The notes under the pieces: generated by a model
Databases searched by the model: none
Told to the model about the DNA's origin: nothing
The model's input: the letters and a program-made list of their open reading frames with translations, nothing else
Shown: positions 2,665 through 29,001 of the stretch, one piece after another
Numbering within the stretch: position 1 is the stretch's first letter
Layout: each line of letters opens with the position of its first letter
IMG/VR virus record: IMGVR_UViG_3300008450_000166
Coordinates: 1 to 36,578 of that record
Reading direction: 5' to 3' (one strand)
Length of the DNA: 36,578 bases
Source of the DNA: a virus
Program-made: the position numbers and the translations under genes

Positions 2665-3402
2665 ATGATAATCTATTTAGCGGGATTAACAAACAAAGAG
2701 TTGTTGTTGATTAAAGATAAAGCGTACATTTTAGAGTCATTTGCTTATATCAAAAAACATAAGAAATGTATTTCAGAGTTATTGAAACATGAATTTATTT
2801 TAGATAGCGGAGCATTTACATTTATAGGAAACAATAAAAAAAAAATAGATTGGGATTCTTACACCGATTACTACATTGAATTTATTAATAAATACGATAT
2901 AAAGAATTATTTTGAATTGGATATTTATTCAATTGTAGGATTAGAAGAAACAGAGCGATTGAGAAAAAAAATTGAACGAGCAACCAATAAAAAATCAATT
3001 CCGGTCTGGCACATATATTTGGGAATTGATTACTTCAAAAAAATGTGCGAAAATTATTCATATATAGCAATCGGTGCAAGTGGAAGGCACGACAGTAAGT
3101 GGACGCGAAGCAACCCAGATAAATTAAAAGCCTTGATTGATTACGCTTCATCAAAAAAAGTAAGGGTGCATGGTTTAGGTTACACCAACATGACAATGTT
3201 AAATGAATTAAATTTCTATTCAGTTGATAGCACTTCATGGATGAATGGTTCTAAATATGGAGAAGTTCAATATTTTGATGGAAGGATAATAAGAAAAGAA
3301 TCTACAAAAAAACACAAGGCAAAAACCATTGATTCAAAAGAGATAATTAAAAACAATATCAATCAATGGTTGAGTTATCAAAAATACATGAAACATAAAT
3401 GA
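2665..3402 (+). CDS. dpdA: DpdA-like DNA-guanine transglycosylase
   Basis: 245 residues, the size of compact phage DpdA proteins. The TGT-barrel landmarks are visible: LDSGAFT (D47, candidate general acid/base), YFELDIY (D86, candidate nucleophile), IAIGASG (135-140), VHGLGYTN (168-175) and YSVDSTSW (185-192). The family exchanges guanine in DNA for a 7-deazaguanine base, in contrast to tRNA-acting Tgt. It starts two bases after the ParB-like gene and overlaps the next gene by ATGA, in an AT-rich patch. Downstream genes supply the modified base. Substrate (preQ0, CDG or another derivative) cannot be read from the sequence. Confidence 0.85.
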   Translation: MIIYLAGLTNKELLLIKDKAYILESFAYIKKHKKCISELLKHEFILDSGAFTFIGNNKKKIDWDSYTDYYIEFINKYDIKNYFELDIYSIVGLEETERLRKKIERATNKKSIPVWHIYLGIDYFKKMCENYSYIAIGASGRHDSKWTRSNPDKLKALIDYASSKKVRVHGLGYTNMTMLNELNFYSVDSTSWMNGSKYGEVQYFDGRIIRKESTKKHKAKTIDSKEIIKNNINQWLSYQKYMKHK

Positions 3403-4151
3403 ATATAATCGGTCATTCAACAATTGGCTTAATAGGGTATTTAATCACTAATGAATATTTGTTTTTGATAGGAAGTATCATTCCAGATTCAGCATTAATA
3501 TTCAATGAATTAAAATTGAAACAATTCGACAAATGGGATGTGAAATATAAATGGATGTATGATTTAACGCATTCACTTTATGCACCATTAATCATAAGTT
3601 TCATTTCTATTCCTTTGTTTGTTGGTTGGTTAATTCATATTTTAATTGATGTGCCTTTTCATTCATCATCGTTCAGATGGAAGCCATTTTTATTTGAAAG
3701 GTACAAAGAAAAAAGAAAAGTGTTATTGCTTAGTGGTGGTGCAGATAGTATTGCGTGTGCCGAAATAGAAAGGAATTACGATTGTATATTCTTTGATTAC
3801 GGTCAGAAATATTTAAGTTCAGAGCTTGAATGTGCAGTCGAATATTGCAATAAGAAAAATCTAAAGTTGCAGATAATCAAGACGGAATGGGGACACGATT
3901 GCAAAAACAGAAATTATTTAATGATAACTAAGATACTGCAACTTGGATATGATGAAGTTATAATTGGCACAAGGAATTTATTTCCTTTTACAGATAAATA
4001 CAAAGACAGTAATTGGTTTAATCTAAAGATGCTTCAATATCTTTATGGCATTTATATTAATATGCCTTTGATTGGAAAATTAAAGTATCAAATAATTAAA
4101 CTCACAAACAATTATAAATACTATTCAACAGAAAAACAATGTACACAATAG
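3399..4151 (+). CDS. membrane metal-hydrolase-like domain fused to a shortened QueC-like domain
   Basis: 250 residues in one unbroken frame. Residues 1-90 resemble the DUF457/YdjM-type membrane-bound metal-dependent hydrolase family: H6, PD (29-30), TH (57-58) and HILID (80-84), with hydrophobic segments near 8-28 and 61-84. Residues 107-250 are QueC-like: PP-loop SGGADS (112-117), FDYGQ (132-136), KNRN (169-172, matching the GRN box) and DKYKDSNW (199-206). QueC converts 7-carboxy-7-deazaguanine to preQ0 with ATP and ammonia. The usual C-terminal four-Cys zinc site is absent; only C248 remains. The gene overlaps queD by 13 bases. I know of no described fusion of this kind. Confidence 0.75.
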   Translation: MNIIGHSTIGLIGYLITNEYLFLIGSIIPDSALIFNELKLKQFDKWDVKYKWMYDLTHSLYAPLIISFISIPLFVGWLIHILIDVPFHSSSFRWKPFLFERYKEKRKVLLLSGGADSIACAEIERNYDCIFFDYGQKYLSSELECAVEYCNKKNLKLQIIKTEWGHDCKNRNYLMITKILQLGYDEVIIGTRNLFPFTDKYKDSNWFNLKMLQYLYGIYINMPLIGKLKYQIIKLTNNYKYYSTEKQCTQ

Positions 4152-4501
4152 CAAAAGAATTTCATTTCAGCGCATCGCATCAGTTAAGCGGATTGCCCGA
4201 CGACCATCCATGCTCGCGTCTTCATGGTCATAATTATGTATTCAGAGTTCACTTAAAATCCGATACTCTTAATGAAGTTGGATTTGTTGTTGATTACAGA
4301 AACCTTGACGACATCAAAAGGTTTATTGATGATGCGCTTGACCATAAACATCTGAATGATTTTCTCCCATTCAATCCAACAGCAGAGAATATGGCAAAGC
4401 ACTTTGCTATTGAGTTCAATAAAGTTCACCCAGAAGTATATGCAGTCGAAGTAGAAGAAACACCAAAAACAATTGCTCGTTATGAAATTAAAGGTATCTG
4501 A
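4139..4501 (+). CDS. queD: 6-carboxy-tetrahydropterin synthase QueD
   Basis: 120 residues, normal length for the family. Zinc ligands H14, H29 and H31 are present, with the catalytic Cys in PCSRLHGH (C25); D68-H69 and the substrate-binding E107 in VEETP complete the active site. The enzyme turns 7,8-dihydroneopterin triphosphate into 6-carboxy-5,6,7,8-tetrahydropterin, the second step to 7-deazaguanines. The gene overlaps its neighbours on both sides, consistent with coordinated expression. Its G+C content is clearly higher than that of the fusion gene just upstream. Confidence 0.93.
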   Translation: MYTIAKEFHFSASHQLSGLPDDHPCSRLHGHNYVFRVHLKSDTLNEVGFVVDYRNLDDIKRFIDDALDHKHLNDFLPFNPTAENMAKHFAIEFNKVHPEVYAVEVEETPKTIARYEIKGI

Positions 4502-5084
4502 AATATTCTACACCTTGCAAGGCGAAGGCGCAAGGGCAGGAACCGCAACAATATTCATTCGCTTATCTGGATGCAAGACAAAGCACGCTTGCGCTGCATC
4601 TGGTATAGTGTGCGACACAGAGTTCGAGAGCGGAAAAGAAATGACTCTCACGGAAATTCGTGACTGGATTTATGATAACGCTGGTGATTGTAAAGAAATC
4701 ACTTGGACTGGAGGCGAGCCACTTGACCAACTTACGGAAGAAATTATTGCAGACTTTAAGAGTTACGGATTTTTTCAAGCCGTAGAAACATCTGGACTTC
4801 AGCCGATGGTTAAAGGACTTGATTTTATTTGCCTTTCACCAAAAGTGGCAGAACATATTGTGGAAAAGAATTTCCCAGATGGAGTTACAGAACTTCGCTA
4901 TGTTCGCCACTTCGGTCAATCAATTCCAGAACCAAAAGTAAAAGCACAGCACTACTGGGTATCTCCGCATAGCGATGGATTCACTATAAACAAACGAAAC
5001 CTTGCTCACTGCATTCAATTATGTAAAGAGAATCCGAAATGGAAATTATCAGTTCAACAACACAAGCAATGGAACATCCTTTAA
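4482..5084 (+). CDS. queE: 7-carboxy-7-deazaguanine synthase QueE (radical SAM)
   Basis: 200 residues from ATG 4482 (a TTG at 4473 would add three). MKLKVSEIFYTLQGEG is the typical QueE start and TWTGGEP (75-80) the SAM-binding GGE motif. The cluster cysteines lie in CKTKHACAASGIVCDTEF (C31, C37, C44), spaced CX5CX6C instead of CX3CX2C. QueE makes 7-carboxy-7-deazaguanine from 6-carboxy-tetrahydropterin. It overlaps queD by 20 bases, and folE starts within its end. The unusual spacing belongs to recognised variation among QueE proteins, but I cannot confirm which cysteines hold the cluster. Confidence 0.9.
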   Translation: MKLKVSEIFYTLQGEGARAGTATIFIRLSGCKTKHACAASGIVCDTEFESGKEMTLTEIRDWIYDNAGDCKEITWTGGEPLDQLTEEIIADFKSYGFFQAVETSGLQPMVKGLDFICLSPKVAEHIVEKNFPDGVTELRYVRHFGQSIPEPKVKAQHYWVSPHSDGFTINKRNLAHCIQLCKENPKWKLSVQQHKQWNIL

Positions 5085-5617
5085 TGACACCAGAGGAAGC
5101 AATGAAAGTAGTCATTGCAAATTTCGACAATACAGAAAGAGAAGGGTTGAAAGAAACCCCAGTACGCTACATTAAATTCCTAAAGGAGTTTCTGAATCCC
5201 GAACCATTTAAGTTCACCACATTTGATGCAGAGGGAATTCAAACAATGATACTGCAGACAAACATACCTTTTTACTCATTGTGCGAACATCACCTTGCCC
5301 CTTTCTTTGGGGTGGCTGCCGTAGCGTATATTCCTGACGACAAGATAGTTGGGTTATCAAAACTGGCAAGATGCGTTGATTTGTATGCCCGAAGATTTCA
5401 AAATCAGGAACGCATCACAAAACAGATTGCTGACCGATTGATGTCAGAACTCAATCCGCAAGGAGTCGCAGTATCAATCACAGCACAACATCTTTGCATG
5501 GCGATGAGAGGAATAAAGAAACACAATACAAACACAACCACAACCGAACTGACTGGTCTATTTAAAGAAAACACATCTGTGAGAGCAGAATTCTTAAACG
5601 CAATCAATGGGAAGTAA
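5039..5617 (+). CDS. folE: GTP cyclohydrolase I
   Basis: 192 residues from ATG 5039, with ATG 5069 and ATG 5084 (TAATG overlap with the queE stop) as alternatives; the conserved domain begins after residue 16, so all are possible. Zinc ligands C82 and H85 (CEHH) and C153 (QHLCMAMRG) are present. The enzyme opens GTP to 7,8-dihydroneopterin triphosphate, the first step of the 7-deazaguanine route. A phage-borne folE would relieve competition with host folate synthesis. An AAAGAGAA tract upstream of 5039 is a weak argument for the long form. Confidence 0.93.
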   Translation: MEIISSTTQAMEHPLMTPEEAMKVVIANFDNTEREGLKETPVRYIKFLKEFLNPEPFKFTTFDAEGIQTMILQTNIPFYSLCEHHLAPFFGVAAVAYIPDDKIVGLSKLARCVDLYARRFQNQERITKQIADRLMSELNPQGVAVSITAQHLCMAMRGIKKHNTNTTTTELTGLFKENTSVRAEFLNAINGK

Positions 5618-16395: not shown

Positions 16396-16673
16396 CAGAG
16401 CCGAAAACTAACATCAACACCGTTTATGAAATTGCAAAGCAATTGGAAATGAACGGACATCTTTCAACGATGATACGGACTGGGCTGGTTTCACCGAAGA
16501 TTCGTTTCTACCTTGAACTTTACAGCAAGTACATTCATTTCATGCAACGAGGATTGAAATCACGGGAGGCTGTTTTTCAAGTCACGATTGTTGTCGGGGT
16601 GAATGAACGAACCGTCTGGCGAGCAATCAAAGCGATGAGAACCCAAAATATTGATATGCGTTTGCATGGGTAA
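16392..16673 (+). CDS. small helix-turn-helix protein
   Basis: 93 residues. The C-terminal half (SREAVFQVTIVVGVNERTVWRAIKAM) reads as a helix-turn-helix, the turn being GVNER. The gene overlaps the tape measure by four bases and is the last of its operon. Its final codons lie in the first of four ATGCGTTTGCAT-type repeats that continue into the adjacent non-coding region. That placement suggests, without proving, an autoregulatory DNA-binding protein acting on these repeats. Confidence 0.7.
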   Translation: MTEPKTNINTVYEIAKQLEMNGHLSTMIRTGLVSPKIRFYLELYSKYIHFMQRGLKSREAVFQVTIVVGVNERTVWRAIKAMRTQNIDMRLHG

Positions 16674-16731
16674 CGCTATGCGTTTGCATACTTCACAATG
16701 CGTTTGCATGAATATTTTTATCCGTTTGCAT
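16656..16731 (+). repeat. array of ATGCGTTTGCAT words (operator/iteron-like)
   Basis: Perfect copies at 16656-16667, 16678-16689 and 16698-16709, and a partial copy CCGTTTGCAT at 16722-16731. Start-to-start spacing is 22 and 20 bases, about two helical turns. The word is an interrupted palindrome, ATGC-GTTT-GCAT. Candidate roles are operator sites for the adjacent HTH protein, replication iterons or packaging signals. Confidence 0.75.
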
Positions 16732-16739
16732 AGAAAACG

Positions 16740-17165
16740 AAAAATATTTCTGGGTGGGCTGGGTTATTCTGGAATTCATTTATAATTTTAACCGCATTGA
16801 ATTAGACATAAGGGTTAAAGCACAACCGTTCCCCTAATTGCTTAGAAGGTAAAAGCGATTGAAAACGGCAGAGAGTAAGGCATATTGCGCGTTGATGAAT
16901 CTGGAATGTTCCCACCTACATCCAGTCCCGAAACCGAAAGGAACACAACGCACCTGCAACGGGTCAGGAAACTTGATATGGATTTTGCTCAGTTGATTCT
17001 TCCTTCAAAAAAAAAGAATCAAAAACTTGAAATGAGTATTTCGGGTAAAGGTGGAGTGTATGCAATCGGCTCATAATCAGAATAAAAAAATGTTGCAAAT
17101 ATTTTCGCAAATCAAAATACATTCACCACATTTGTATTCTCTGCCGTAGGTGGCAACCAAAACCC
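16740..17165. other. non-coding region between tail and head modules, foldable
   Basis: No convincing long gene. Hairpin ATTGCTT (16837-16843)/AAGCGAT (16853-16859) is enclosed by CCGTT (16826-16830)/AACGG (16864-16868). A second element nests GTTCC (16908-16912)/GGAAC (16940-16944) inside GCGTT (16889-16893)/AACGC (16947-16951). A 45-codon frame with Cys residues (TTG 16859 to stop 16996) crosses the same bases. This could be a structured RNA, a leader or a small or decayed gene; I cannot decide. Confidence 0.35.
16859..16996 (+). CDS. possible small Cys-containing ORF
   Basis: 45 residues from TTG 16859 (or ATG 16895 for a shorter form). It reads ECSHLHPVPKPKGTQRTCNG in the middle, with three Cys and a Lys/Pro stretch, a natural-looking composition compared with the other frames. 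No family recognised, no ribosome-binding evidence, and it overlaps predicted hairpins, so it may be a chance frame or a remnant. Confidence 0.25.
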   Translation: MKTAESKAYCALMNLECSHLHPVPKPKGTQRTCNGSGNLIWILLS

Positions 17166-17203
17166 GACCGATGCTCCCGCCTTAGAGTATCGGTCATTTT
17201 TTT
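17166..17203 (+). terminator. rho-independent terminator after tail operon
   Basis: GACCGAT (17166-17172) pairs with ATCGGTC (17189-17195), followed by a T-run from 17197 to 17203. A small hairpin TGCC-GTAGGT-GGCA lies just before it. Confidence 0.8.
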
Positions 17204-17234
17204 ATAATTAGGCACACATGATGTTTGCTTTTTC

Positions 17235-17270
17235 GCCCGAAGGTTAGTGATGTTTCCTTCGGGCTTTTTA
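17235..17270 (+). terminator. second rho-independent terminator
   Basis: Perfect 9-bp stem GCCCGAAGG (17235-17243)/CCTTCGGGC (17256-17264), then TTTTT. With the element 40 bases upstream it forms a double terminator that insulates the tail operon from the head operon. Confidence 0.9.
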
Positions 17271-17314
17271 TTTGCTGACAAAATACAGCCACCAGATTAA
17301 GGGATTGCCGAACA

Positions 17315-17322
17315 TAATTTTG
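17315..17322 (+). promoter_or_regulatory. -7 box for head operon
   Basis: TAATTTTG matches TAnnTTTG, directly after the double terminator and five bases before the ATG at 17328, so the transcript would be leaderless or nearly so. No matching TTTG at the -33 spacing was seen. Confidence 0.45.
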
Positions 17323-17327
17323 TCGGC

Positions 17328-18521
17328 ATGAAATTTAAAGGTATAAACGCCAAACATATTTTTGATGCGACCGACAACAAAGCAGTTGGTCACATTTATG
17401 TTTATGGTGACATCTACCATGCACAGCAAGCCGATGCGAATGAGTGGGGCATTGTTTCTATGAAGACGGTGCTTGACCAGATTCAATCGCAGCCAGACGC
17501 AAAAGAATTCATTGTACATATCCACAGCAGAGGCGGTGATGTAAACGAAGGTTTCGCAATTCATGACGCGCTCGTATCATCTGGAAAGAAAATCACAACC
17601 CATGTTGAGGGCTTGTGCGCCAGCATTGCGACCGTAATCGCTCTTGCTGGCTCTGAAAGGAAAATGAATAAGAACTCGGATTTCTTTATTCACAACCCGT
17701 GGGGCGACCCTTTCATGATGAATGGATTTACTGCCGATGATTATGAAAAGCGTGCAGAACAAATCAGACAAGCAGAAACAAAGTTGCTTGACTTTTATGT
17801 TGCAAAGACTGGCGCAGATGCTGGTCAGTTATCTGCAATGATGAAAGAAGAAACCACGCTCACAGCCGACCAAGCGTTGGAAATGAAATTCATCACAGAG
17901 GTTGTTGATACAATCAATGCTGTTGCGAAACTCGGAAAAACACAAACCCAAAATAAAGAAGACATGACAAAAGTTGCACGGGCAATTTCTTTCCTTGACG
18001 GATTGAAAGCCTTTCTCAATGGTGAGTCACAAACCTCACCCACACTTGCGTTGAAAATGACGCTGAAAGACGGAACTGAAATTGAAGTTGAAACAGAAGG
18101 GAATGACATTGCCGTTGATGATGTTGTTACAATCAATGGCGAGCCTGCACCAGATGGCGAGCATGAATTGTCTGACGGACGCAAAATCACTACCGCTGGC
18201 GGTAAGGTTACTGAAATTAAACCAGCCGAAACCACAGAAGAAGGAAGCGAAAGCAATGAAGAAACAGAAGCATTGCAAGCGCAAATCAATCAACTGACCG
18301 AAGAAAACAATACACTCCGCACGCAGAATCAGGAACTTCAAAACAACATGAATACAATCATGGACAAGGTGAAGAGCCTCGAAGCACTTGCAAAGAAAAC
18401 TGGAAGCACCTTTACTCCAGAAAACCGCGACTTCAATCGTCAGAAAGGCGGAGCAGATGAATCTGTTGAAGCAAGGATTGCAAGAAGGAAAGCAGAAGCA
18501 GCACAAAACAAACCCAAATAA
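17328..18521 (+). CDS. ClpP-type prohead protease fused to scaffold
   Basis: 397 residues. Residues 1-200 are an S14 (ClpP-like) peptidase: GDI near 27, HSRGGDVNEG (66-75), nucleophile S99 in GLCASIA, and H122 in FIHNPWG. Residues 213-397 are acidic and end in a coiled coil (about 315-355) and a basic tail, typical of capsid scaffolds. The protease matures the prohead and digests the scaffold. An internal in-frame ATG at 17964, preceded by AAAGAAG, could give a separate 185-residue scaffold, as in lambda C/Nu3. It lies just upstream of the capsid genes. Confidence 0.9.
   Translation: MKFKGINAKHIFDATDNKAVGHIYVYGDIYHAQQADANEWGIVSMKTVLDQIQSQPDAKEFIVHIHSRGGDVNEGFAIHDALVSSGKKITTHVEGLCASIATVIALAGSERKMNKNSDFFIHNPWGDPFMMNGFTADDYEKRAEQIRQAETKLLDFYVAKTGADAGQLSAMMKEETTLTADQALEMKFITEVVDTINAVAKLGKTQTQNKEDMTKVARAISFLDGLKAFLNGESQTSPTLALKMTLKDGTEIEVETEGNDIAVDDVVTINGEPAPDGEHELSDGRKITTAGGKVTEIKPAETTEEGSESNEETEALQAQINQLTEENNTLRTQNQELQNNMNTIMDKVKSLEALAKKTGSTFTPENRDFNRQKGGADESVEARIARRKAEAAQNKPK
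17964..18521 (+). CDS. possible nested scaffold protein (internal start)
   Basis: Codon 213 of the protease gene is an ATG preceded by AAAGAAG at a suitable distance. Translation from it gives the scaffold half alone (185 residues: an acidic domain, then a coiled coil with LTEENNTLRTQNQELQNN, then an Arg/Lys-rich end). Nested scaffolds of this layout are known from lambda Nu3. Use of the internal start is inferred. Confidence 0.4.
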   Translation: MTKVARAISFLDGLKAFLNGESQTSPTLALKMTLKDGTEIEVETEGNDIAVDDVVTINGEPAPDGEHELSDGRKITTAGGKVTEIKPAETTEEGSESNEETEALQAQINQLTEENNTLRTQNQELQNNMNTIMDKVKSLEALAKKTGSTFTPENRDFNRQKGGADESVEARIARRKAEAAQNKPK

Positions 18522-23294: not shown

Positions 23295-24278
23295 ATGAGC
23301 CTCAAAGACATTATTTTCCGCTTCATCACTAAGGCTGGACACACCACAAAAGGAACGGAGTTGACGCATGAAGAACTTGATGAAAACTTCGAGAACATTA
23401 TTGACCACCTCAACAAAACAAACCAAGCAGCAGCAGGGAGCATTGAGCCTTACGACAACGGTGCGACATACGACCCAGCAATTCCAAACTATGTTTCATA
23501 TTCTGGAAACATTTATTTTCTGATTGCTGGCTCACCGACAACTGGCATCGTTCCAGACTCAGACCCATTGACATGGGAGATTGTTTCAGAGGGTGCGCTT
23601 GCTCATGTCAAAAACACAGACGCATATCTTGCAAGAGGAACAGCCGACCAAGTGAGCGCAGCAGAAATCCGCGCACACCTTGACGCTGTTGTTGGAACTC
23701 CGCTACAATATATTGAATTGATATGGTCTGAATTCCTTGCGCTTGCAGCATCTGGCGATGTTATACCTCGCACCTTTTATCGTATCACAGACAAAGGATT
23801 TGGAATGCAAGGAGCGATGGTTTATGCTGTTGATGCGGTTGGAACATTCACCCCATTAGGTGATATGGCTTTCGGAACAAATCATCATGGAGTTACACAT
23901 GAAATCGCAACTACATCAGATACTATTGACCTAATGACTGCTCCAGAAGCGTTTGCATTGGTTAGTTGCACAATGTTTGAAATTGACCATACTGGTGCTG
24001 GTAGCCCGTTAATTGCTTTAAACTCTGGCGGTGGAACAGGAAATAAATTTGCAATAAGACCAAAGGGAGGCACAACAATGCAAATCACAATCGCAGACAG
24101 CGGAACATATACTGGGCTTGTAGAAGGAGAGTTTACTGCATCACCATCGGTAGCAGCAGGAACATACACGCTTGATGGCAGCAAGCATGAATACATTGTT
24201 TTCATTGGACTCGGAACAGCATATGGAGGCGCACTTTGGGCTTGCAGAGCAATTGAAATTTCACAAGAAGTCATTTAA
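23295..24278 (+). CDS. appendage/fibre protein with carbohydrate-binding-like module
   Basis: 327 residues. N-terminal TKGTELTHEELDENFENI is the common fibre start motif (KGxxLTxxExDxNFxN). Residues about 53-95 (PYDNGATYDPAIPNYVSYSGNIYFLIAG, ending LTWEIV) resemble a CBM5/12-type module with exposed aromatics. The C-terminal half is Gly/Thr-rich and beta-like, with LIALNSGGGTGNKF. Likely a receptor-binding or head-fibre protein; it opens the appendage block downstream of the connector. Confidence 0.65.
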   Translation: MSLKDIIFRFITKAGHTTKGTELTHEELDENFENIIDHLNKTNQAAAGSIEPYDNGATYDPAIPNYVSYSGNIYFLIAGSPTTGIVPDSDPLTWEIVSEGALAHVKNTDAYLARGTADQVSAAEIRAHLDAVVGTPLQYIELIWSEFLALAASGDVIPRTFYRITDKGFGMQGAMVYAVDAVGTFTPLGDMAFGTNHHGVTHEIATTSDTIDLMTAPEAFALVSCTMFEIDHTGAGSPLIALNSGGGTGNKFAIRPKGGTTMQITIADSGTYTGLVEGEFTASPSVAAGTYTLDGSKHEYIVFIGLGTAYGGALWACRAIEISQEVI

Positions 24279-27473: not shown

Positions 27474-27643
27474 AAAAAGCATGGTACAAATCTCGCGCAA
27501 TGTGGGCTGGCTATTTGCTGGTCGTGTTCGGAATCATTCATTACTGGAAGACAGAAAACCTTTCGGCATCAATGGAACTCGTGTTGATGGGGCTTGGCTT
27601 CATCGGGGTTCGTAGTGCCATTGGTAAATCAATTAAGGGATGA
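27470..27643 (+). CDS. 57-residue two-segment membrane protein, holin-like
   Basis: Starts at ATG 27470 inside the previous stop (ATGA) and ends TGA 27641-27643, overlapping the spanin start. After MKKAWYKSRAMW come a hydrophobic stretch AGYLLVVFGIIHYW and a second one, MELVLMGLGFIGV, then a Lys end. Two short TM segments with a Lys-rich N-terminus suit a small holin. Tight overlaps on both sides strongly support that it is a real gene. Confidence 0.75.
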   Translation: MKKAWYKSRAMWAGYLLVVFGIIHYWKTENLSASMELVLMGLGFIGVRSAIGKSIKG

Positions 27644-28173
27644 AATTGATAAATGCGTTTGCATTTATAGTTATTGCGTTTGCATTCACTTCGTGTTGCC
27701 CGAAAGTGTTGCAGACCGAACAAACAACCAGTCGCGTCACAACATCGGACACAATCTACCTGAGAGATACGATTGAAATTCCGACTGCGACTGCGACTGG
27801 CTTGTTTGATTCCGCTAAATTCATGACAATATGTGACAGCATATTGCTTTTGAAGTCAGGACAAGGCATAGAAATCACAAACACAGAAACAAACACAGAA
27901 ACAAAATCAGTTCCGCGCATCCAGACAATTAAAATTGTAAAGGATACGGCTGGCTTTTTCAGAATTCAAGCCGACATTTCAAGTTACATGGCGGAAATTG
28001 ATTCGCTCCGCAAGGTGATAACAACAAAGGATTCAGTTAGCACCATTACAACAAAGATTATCGCCAAGTGCGTCAGCAAATTTCACCGATTTACGCGGAC
28101 ATTTTTCTGGTTATTTTTAGCCCTATTTTTAGGGTATATTTTGGCGAAAATCGGAGGCTTGAAATTGCCCTAA
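27640..28173 (+). CDS. unimolecular spanin (lipoprotein with C-terminal TM)
   Basis: 177 residues. The N-terminus MKLINAFAFIVIAFAFTSC ends in a lipobox-like AFTSC (Cys19, second Cys next), so it should be a lipoprotein. The middle is a soluble, helix-prone periplasmic span, and residues about 152-170 form a C-terminal TM segment (FFWLFLALFLGYILAKI). A lipoprotein anchored in the outer membrane and inserted in the inner membrane by its C-terminus is the u-spanin architecture, as in T1 gp11. It is last in the lysis cassette. The first bases encode two ATGCGTTTGCAT-type words (27653-27664, 27675-27685). Confidence 0.75.
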   Translation: MKLINAFAFIVIAFAFTSCCPKVLQTEQTTSRVTTSDTIYLRDTIEIPTATATGLFDSAKFMTICDSILLLKSGQGIEITNTETNTETKSVPRIQTIKIVKDTAGFFRIQADISSYMAEIDSLRKVITTKDSVSTITTKIIAKCVSKFHRFTRTFFWLFLALFLGYILAKIGGLKLP

Positions 28174-28184
28174 AATTGCCCAAA

Positions 28185-28208
28185 AATAGGGTATTTTATC
28201 CCTTTTTA
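28185..28208 (+). terminator. candidate terminator after lysis cassette
   Basis: AATAGGG followed by ATCCCTTTTT can form a short stem (GGG-TATTTTAT-CCC) ending in a T-run. The stem is short and A/T-rich, so strength is uncertain. Confidence 0.4.
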
Positions 28209-28332
28209 GGAAAATTATTGGGTTGATTTTCAAGCATTTAGAAAATAAATGATACAACCTATAGTATTATATATTAATATTGCCTCATTGAATTCAAGCC
28301 CAACGGGGCAATGTTCTTTGAAATTTTGGGGT

Positions 28333-28340
28333 TACATTTA
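28333..28340 (+). promoter_or_regulatory. -7-like box upstream of structured RNA
   Basis: TACATTTA is one base off TAnnTTTG and lies 18 bases before the first helix of the RNA candidate. No TTTG at the expected -33 spacing. Confidence 0.35.
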
Positions 28341-28344
28341 AGCA

Positions 28345-28535
28345 AGCGGTCAAGGTAGTGATGCGTTAAGGTGCAAAGCAAAAGTTCAACACCTGAATCA
28401 CGAAACTGCGGACGGGATGTAACAGCCAATATGACAGACCAAGAGGAAACTCAGTACCGCTCTGCGGAGGTCATTGTTAAGTAGGGGTTGAACAACTTTT
28501 CAATCGTTACCCCGAATCGGTTAATCCGAGCAATG
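28345..28535 (+). ncRNA. candidate structured RNA, unknown class
   Basis: Non-coding stretch between lysis and early genes with several consistent helices. Hairpin I: GTGAT (28358-28362)/ATCAC (28397-28401) plus AGGTG (28369-28373)/CACCT (28390-28394). Long helix: CGGG+GTAAC (28413-28416, 28419-28423)/GTTAC+CCCG (28506-28514). Inside it, GACC (28437-28440)/GGTC (28469-28472) encloses GAG-GAAA-CTC (28443-28452, a GNRA loop) and CCGC-TCT-GCGG (28457-28467), a three-way junction. The loop of hairpin I (AAAAGTTCAA, 28380-28389) is complementary to 28487-28500, allowing a pseudoknot. A last hairpin is TCGG/CCGA (28517-28529). No known RNA class recognised. Confidence 0.6.
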
Positions 28536-28674
28536 AAATCTGATAATGCAGCAGTGTGTTGTTAGTCGGGAGATTAACATTAAGGGAGGTTGAGGAACTT
28601 AACAGAGTGCGCTTTTCAATCCACTCGCTTTTATTCGGTATCTGGTTGCCGAATCGCTGCAAACAATCTTCACA

Positions 28675-28751
28675 CAATGTAGGGCGGTGGATGCGTCATG
28701 ATGCTTGTCACATGACGATGATGCGCCTTGAATCGAATTCACCCTACATTG
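28675..28751. repeat. long inverted repeat with internal inverted repeat
   Basis: CAATGTAGGG (28675-28684) is complementary to CCCTACATTG (28742-28751), a perfect 10-bp outer stem around about 57 bases. Inside, CGTCATG (28694-28700) pairs with CATGACG (28711-28717). No T-run follows. The nested palindromes directly upstream of the early genes could form a cruciform or an RNA structure in the leader; origin, operator and leader roles are all possible. Confidence 0.65.
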
Positions 28752-28760
28752 CAACAATTC

Positions 28761-28791
28761 AAACATCACTAATTTAAAAACATCAAACATC
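28761..28791 (+). promoter_or_regulatory. AAACATC leader repeats (first of a set)
   Basis: AAACATC occurs at 28761-28767, 28778-28784 and 28785-28791, the last abutting ATG 28792. The same word precedes the next four genes with starts at 29036, 30442, 31465 and 31829. Confidence 0.55.
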
Positions 28792-29001
28792 ATGAAAAAT
28801 CAAAACATCACAAAGTCGGAAACTCAACTAACTATTGAAAACAGAGTTGAACGCATTATGCGCGAAATTCGCTTTACTGAAAAGTTCTGCGAAACAGAGT
28901 TACGAATCTTTGAAAAAACATTGAATAGCGCAATGAATGAAGTTGCGAGAACGCAAGCAACCGAAATCGCTAATACAATCAGTAGAAACTTTATTAAATA
29001 A
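28792..29001 (+). CDS. small helical hypothetical protein
   Basis: 69 residues, predicted all-helical and charged (NRVERIMREIRFTEKFCETELRIFEKTL), one Cys. It is the first gene of the early region, after the nested inverted repeat and the AAACATC leader. No family recognised; small helical early proteins are often takeover or regulatory factors, but nothing in the sequence shows that. Confidence 0.6.
   Translation: MKNQNITKSETQLTIENRVERIMREIRFTEKFCETELRIFEKTLNSAMNEVARTQATEIANTISRNFIK

Follow-up and report, generated by a model that had tools for sequence, protein, structure and literature searches.

A gene-free gap between the lysis-type and early genes

The window, that is, the whole stretch of 36,578 bases analysed here (virus record G000), belongs to a tailed phage related to Bacteroidota-type phages. 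Its gene modules are a queuosine-type pathway, terminase, tail, a ClpP-like protease, capsid (our own assignment, made via phage BS-TP3) and a lysis-type region (DUF5675), followed by the early genes. The latter include an AAA ATPase and DUF7192, as well as a 301-aa protein and a 264-aa protein that, from inspection by eye, we take to be a single-strand annealing protein (SSAP) and a nuclease, respectively. The queuosine-type set (2665-5617) consists of TGT-like, QueC, QueD/PTPS, radical-SAM and GTP cyclohydrolase I genes; the radical-SAM protein could be QueE, and the set likely serves 7-deazaguanine modification of the phage DNA.

After the last lysis-type gene and before the first early gene, between a 177-aa gene (27640-28173) and a 69-aa gene (28792-29001), there is a gene-free gap of 618 bases on the plus strand (28174-28791). 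Stops interrupt all six frames and leave no open frame, in agreement with the earlier note, which had described a gene-free region of 600 bases. A 17-codon ORF at 28431-28484 (MTDQEETQYRSAEVIVK) overlaps the three-way junction listed below; it is short enough to have arisen by chance and probably did, a leader peptide being possible. The features in and around the predicted structure are as follows.

28278-28313, plus strand: 9-bp hairpin TATTGCCTC/GGGGCAATG with a weak T-rich tail
28312-28321, plus strand: TGTTCTTTGA, called a -7-like box in the earlier note; not TANNTTTG
28325-28516, plus strand: whole structured domain, closing helix 28326-28330/28511-28515 (UUGGG/CCCGA)
28331-28423, plus strand: 5' arm of stacked helices (GUUACAUUU/GGAUGUAAC, GCGGU/ACUGC, GUGAU/AUCAC, AGGUG/CACCU)
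28384-28394 with 28483-28493, plus strand: alternative long-range helix (the pseudoknot of the earlier note), disfavoured by energy
28432-28479, plus strand: three-way junction (UGACA.GACC/GGUC.AU.UGUUA, GAG-GAAA-CUC, CCGC-UCU-GCGG)
28432-28440/28469-28479, plus strand: 9-bp helix with 2-base bulge, in the minimum free energy (MFE) fold
28443-28452, plus strand: GAG-GAAA-CUC hairpin, in the MFE fold
28457-28467, plus strand: CCGC-UCU-GCGG hairpin, in the MFE fold
28481-28510, plus strand: 3' hairpin GUAG.GGUUGAA/UUCAAUC.UUAC, rival to the proposed pseudoknot
28633-28654, plus strand: hairpin ATTCGG/CCGAAT, in the 3' part of the putative leader
28675-28751, plus strand: 3' domain, closed by the perfect 10-bp CAATGTAGGG/CCCTACATTG

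Terminator-like hairpins immediately precede the folded domain, and the one at 28278-28313 is a possible terminator of late transcription. No strong terminator was seen by the terminator scan between the folded part and the gene at 28792. The promoter consensus TANNTTTG occurs zero times on the plus strand in 28174-28790; relatives carry TATCTTTG boxes at the same junction. The supposed -7-like box at 28312 reads GTTCTTTG, which is degenerate and is not the Bacteroidota consensus, and a promoter at this position was rejected for not fitting TANNTTTG. We take TGTTCTTTGA to resemble boxA. A scan for boxA-like sites gave one exact plus-strand copy, at 28312, and 10 one-mismatch sites for 7.6 expected, so that the one-mismatch sites are not enriched.

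Predicted fold of the 5' domain

The best-folding unit, 28325-28516, has an energy of -55.3 kcal/mol with z = -2.56 and p = 0.003, beating 299 of 300 dinucleotide shuffles; its bounds were picked after folding, so that this p-value and those of the sub-domains are optimistic. The latter are 0.007 for the arm (28331-28424), 0.05 for the three-way junction alone (28428-28482), 0.01 for the 3' hairpin region (28480-28512) and 0.007 for the 3' domain region (28670-28756). Earlier folds of the region agree with the model. The helices listed in the earlier note (9-bp helix with 2-base bulge, GAAA-loop hairpin and CCGC/GCGG hairpin) all exist in the sequence and in the MFE fold, where their mean pair probabilities are 0.89-0.99. 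The boundaries given there, 28345-28535, leave out the closing helix as well as GUUACAUUU (28331-28339), which is the outer arm's 5' strand, and because the span cuts the outer strands its p-value against shuffles is 0.09.

A tiling scan of both strands of the window gives z = -2.0 for the plus-strand position 28325, while at least 20 of the 384 other window-strands lie at -2.48 or lower; the lowest value, -4.6, belongs to a 190-nt window starting at 17101. From the tiling and the p-values together, the structure is therefore moderately better than chance and not outstanding. The description as a structured RNA has modest thermodynamic support. Since no relative with the same sequence was found, we leave the fold of 28325-28516 as a moderate, unproven prediction.

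It had also been proposed that the loop of a 5' hairpin forms a pseudoknot with 28487-28500. The strands, GUUCAAC/GUUGAAC, are complementary and can be extended to 10/11 pairs, yet pairing of the 5' hairpin loop with 28487-28493 comes out at least 6 kcal/mol worse than the nested fold in a simple accounting that excludes pseudoknot loop energies. The 3' strand also pairs, with P = 0.94, in the local 7-bp hairpin GGUUGAA/UUCAAUC, and within the extended 5' strand lies CACCU, which pairs with AGGUG in a stem of its own (P = 0.98). If both strands are left unpaired, the energy changes from -55.3 to -42.6 kcal/mol, a cost of 12.7 kcal/mol against a duplex gain of 6.6, and forcing the long helix gives -46.8 kcal/mol. 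On these calculated energies the pseudoknot would be at most a minor alternative fold; it could conceivably be a switch.

Relatives and a second RNA candidate

Rfam 15 gave no family for the element at the gathering score, so it is still unassigned, as stated previously; a relaxed search returned only sub-threshold chance matches outside the domain. ARAGORN found 0 tRNA or tmRNA genes, and blastn against phages and plasmids gave no credible match to the element. Within the reach of the capped scans, Rfam, BLAST and a covariance model detected no homologue among roughly 50 records of related phages and 395 Bacteroidota genomes. The covariance model (R1), a single-sequence model, was run on terminase, capsid and early-gene relatives and on the 395 genomes. 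It had no match in the related phages; on L194 (record G436), with the filters switched off, its scores rise to at most 10.9 bits, which is chance level. Its sole match among the 395 genomes (E = 0.005 per genome) was discarded as chance, lying antisense within an ORF that we recognised by eye as, presumably, a CDP-alcohol phosphatidyltransferase. A scan of IMG/VR for the GAAA-hairpin motif likewise yielded a single, rejected match, inside a 546-aa ORF adjoining terminase-like ORFs.

Related phages have small genes, short spacers or unrelated sequence at this place. In capsid-module relatives the lysis gene is followed by promoters and small ORFs, the corresponding junction of L204 is a spacer of 239 nt, and nothing comparable to the gap is present at this place in G438 (capsid 64%, terminase 57%). 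To judge from the sequences compared, the element is not conserved among the capsid-module relatives, because these have small ORFs or short spacers at the junction. The closest colinear relative over structural and early genes is G436 (28.2 kb; capsid 69%, terminase 62%, SSAP 50%). Its record starts inside the AAA gene and ends inside the counterpart of 23295-24278, and the syntenic place of the gap is therefore missing from it. G436 does have a gap directly 5' of the SSAP gene (L194:4145-4720), where the window has none, and in G436 some 385 nt of folded, gene-free sequence run straight into an early gene. In phage BS-TP3 (PQ571276.1), whose structural genes follow the same order, the lysis cassette is followed by a gap of 774 nt. 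Neither the G436 gap nor BS-TP3 could be linked by sequence to the reported region. One gene-free gap of BS-TP3 (L130) holds four successive terminator hairpins, at 17801, 17963, 18134 and 18292, with the loop motif CT(C/T)GTGAT(A/G) common to all.

The window has a second gene-free gap, 16673-17328, upstream of the ClpP-like gene, with the following features.

16753-17045, plus strand: second RNA candidate; counterpart L194:4335-4571 of G436, probably homologous
16901-16925, plus strand: hairpin
16927-16933/17039-17045, plus strand: closing helix
16966-16975, plus strand: AGGAAACTTG element
16993-17001/17014-17022, plus strand: hairpin

In this gap and in that of G436 the order is the same: a TATTT(T/C)TG box, a GGTGGG(T/C)TG start, a hairpin of 7-8 bp, one base, the closing helix, AGGAAACTTG and a hairpin beginning with CAGTTGA. 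The long-range closing helix is GGGCAAAACACA/TGTGTTTTGCCC in G436 and CCCGAAA/TTTCGGG in the window, with spans of 124 and 119 nt. Alignment of the two domains gives p < 0.001 (1000 shuffles, three scoring schemes), a post-selection value for a domain chosen by eye, and larger regions give p = 0.002-0.045. In hand-aligned pairs from two sequences only, 12 of 23 are altered on both sides, including a change of the closing helix from CCCG/CGGG to GGGC/GCCC; MAFFT places this helix differently. Only the domain-level alignment was significant, BLAST-like scoring of the whole gaps (16673-17328 against G436) being not significant. Single-sequence covariance models find the expected domain end to end in both directions, at E = 9.1 and 3.6, and the architecture score was matched by 17 of 200 shuffles for the window and 0 of 200 for G436. 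A family motif search of the 395 genomes gave 2 matches, against 1 in the reversed control, and the one inspected lies inside a long open frame. At the gathering score Rfam had no match on the window and L194; below that threshold, a weak match fell in the terminator part. Taken as sequence evidence, these comparisons indicate that the gaps 16673-17328 and L194:4145-4720, which lie at different genomic places, probably share one homologous structured RNA domain. The second RNA candidate is a better RNA candidate than the reported element.

Two further observations concern the surroundings of this second gap. Two adjacent strong terminators, 17166-17195 and 17235-17264 (within 17164-17272), stand at its end, upstream of the ClpP-like gene. 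The motif GCGTTTGCAT, often extended to ATGCGTTTGCAT, has 12 copies in the window for 0.23 expected (largest shuffle value 3), at 365, 5650(-), 6089(-), 7901, 16658, 16680, 16700, 23949, 24412(-), 27655, 27676 and 36536(-). Three copies and one variant stand in tandem immediately 5' of the second RNA candidate, and the motif was not found in the checked stretches of G436, G437 and G438. It could be a protein-binding or DNA-modification motif.

A possible leader of the early operon

The reading that we tentatively put foremost, with a probability of roughly 0.45, is that the element is a lineage-specific, cis-acting structured untranslated leader of the early operon, about 465 nt long. We infer that transcription would begin where the late (lysis) genes give way to the early operon and run into the genes from 28792. 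The reported feature would be the 5' half of this leader, whose transcript would fold into the 5' domain 28325-28516 (stacked arm, three-way junction and hairpin) and the 3' domain 28675-28751. Its role in cis might be to stabilise the early transcript, to time the translation of the first early genes or to influence elongation. The leader is favoured because the gap has no open frame and lies directly 5' of early genes on the same strand, with no strong terminator intervening; because 28325-28516 and 28670-28756 have p-values of 0.003 and 0.007 and a perfect 10-bp repeat closes the 3' domain; and because G436 has its folded stretch of about 385 nt before an early gene and BS-TP3 its 774-nt post-lysis gap. 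It is disfavoured by the missing homologue, a fold unexceptional in the window, the lack of a consensus promoter and the fact that the element is not conserved.

Less probable, and in our view rather doubtful, is that the gap is an ordinary spacer made of late terminators and an early promoter region, its helices being chance matches with no RNA function. The tiling z of about -2, with at least 20 other window-strands lower, would fit such a spacer, as would the p-value of 0.09 for the span first reported, the absence from relatives and the terminator-like hairpins just upstream. However, a spacer of 618 bases would be long for so packed a genome, and the p-values of 0.003 for 28325-28516 and of 0.01 or less for several sub-domains argue for more than chance. 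A free-standing phage noncoding RNA acting in trans, for instance by binding a host protein or RNA, and either released from the leader or made separately, would account for the compact multi-helix domain with its closing helix, GAAA loop and three-way junction in a gene-free stretch. We consider it unlikely, as there is no terminator after 28516 or before 28792, no consensus promoter and no homologue in the collections searched. That the gap lies where modules meet and contains inverted repeats, for example CAATGTAGGG/CCCTACATTG, would also suit a replication origin, attachment or partition site in which the repeats act as DNA, but such an element is very improbable: the gap shows no GC-skew break, the repeat scan no iteron array, and the proteins profiled, which are part of the protein set, no integrase.

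Still less probable is that the element is a diverged member of the family of the second RNA (16753-17045) and its G436 counterpart, with an arm, a closing helix, a AGGAAACU hairpin and a GUUGA hairpin. Like these two, it is gene-free and hairpin-rich, lies at a module junction and has AGGAAACU and a GUUGA hairpin; neither in sequence nor in fold does it match them significantly across the full regions. Among the gene-free gaps scanned, AGGAAACT occurs only in these three, the GUUGA hairpin then follows in each, and the element and G436 domains align with p = 0.013-0.055. Against this, the full regions give p = 0.19 or more against G436, comparison with the window's own second RNA gives p = 0.04-0.72 depending on the scheme, the G436 covariance model misses the element, and 21 of 200 shuffles, as well as one other place, equal the element's architecture score. 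The closing helix that the family would require, GGG.AU.GUAAC/GUUAC-CCC (28414-28423/28506-28513), costs 8.5 kcal/mol. That both window gaps and the differently placed G436 gap contain members of a new movable phage noncoding RNA family, in which the reported element has diverged, is improbable, if marginally less so than the DNA site.

The preferred reading, a leader of the early operon, can be compared with known systems. Phage lambda nut and HK022 put are structured 5' leaders or antitermination elements of phage early operons; like them, the element precedes an early operon and has a boxA-like TGTTCTTTGA just 5' of the folded domain, but one-mismatch boxA-like sites are at chance frequency, and no antiterminator was identified for the element. 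GOLLD and ROOL occur in phages. With GOLLD, ROOL and OLE, which are large ornate phage and bacterial RNAs (PMC12286853), the element has in common that it is gene-free and multi-helix, whereas its domain is much smaller and has no Rfam match at the gathering or the relaxed threshold.

At present the reported element is an orphan prediction. If real, it would add a structured leader or noncoding RNA not described before to the few RNAs that have been characterised in this phage group. The probable RNA domain common to two phages at different genomic places offers a concrete target for a family search.
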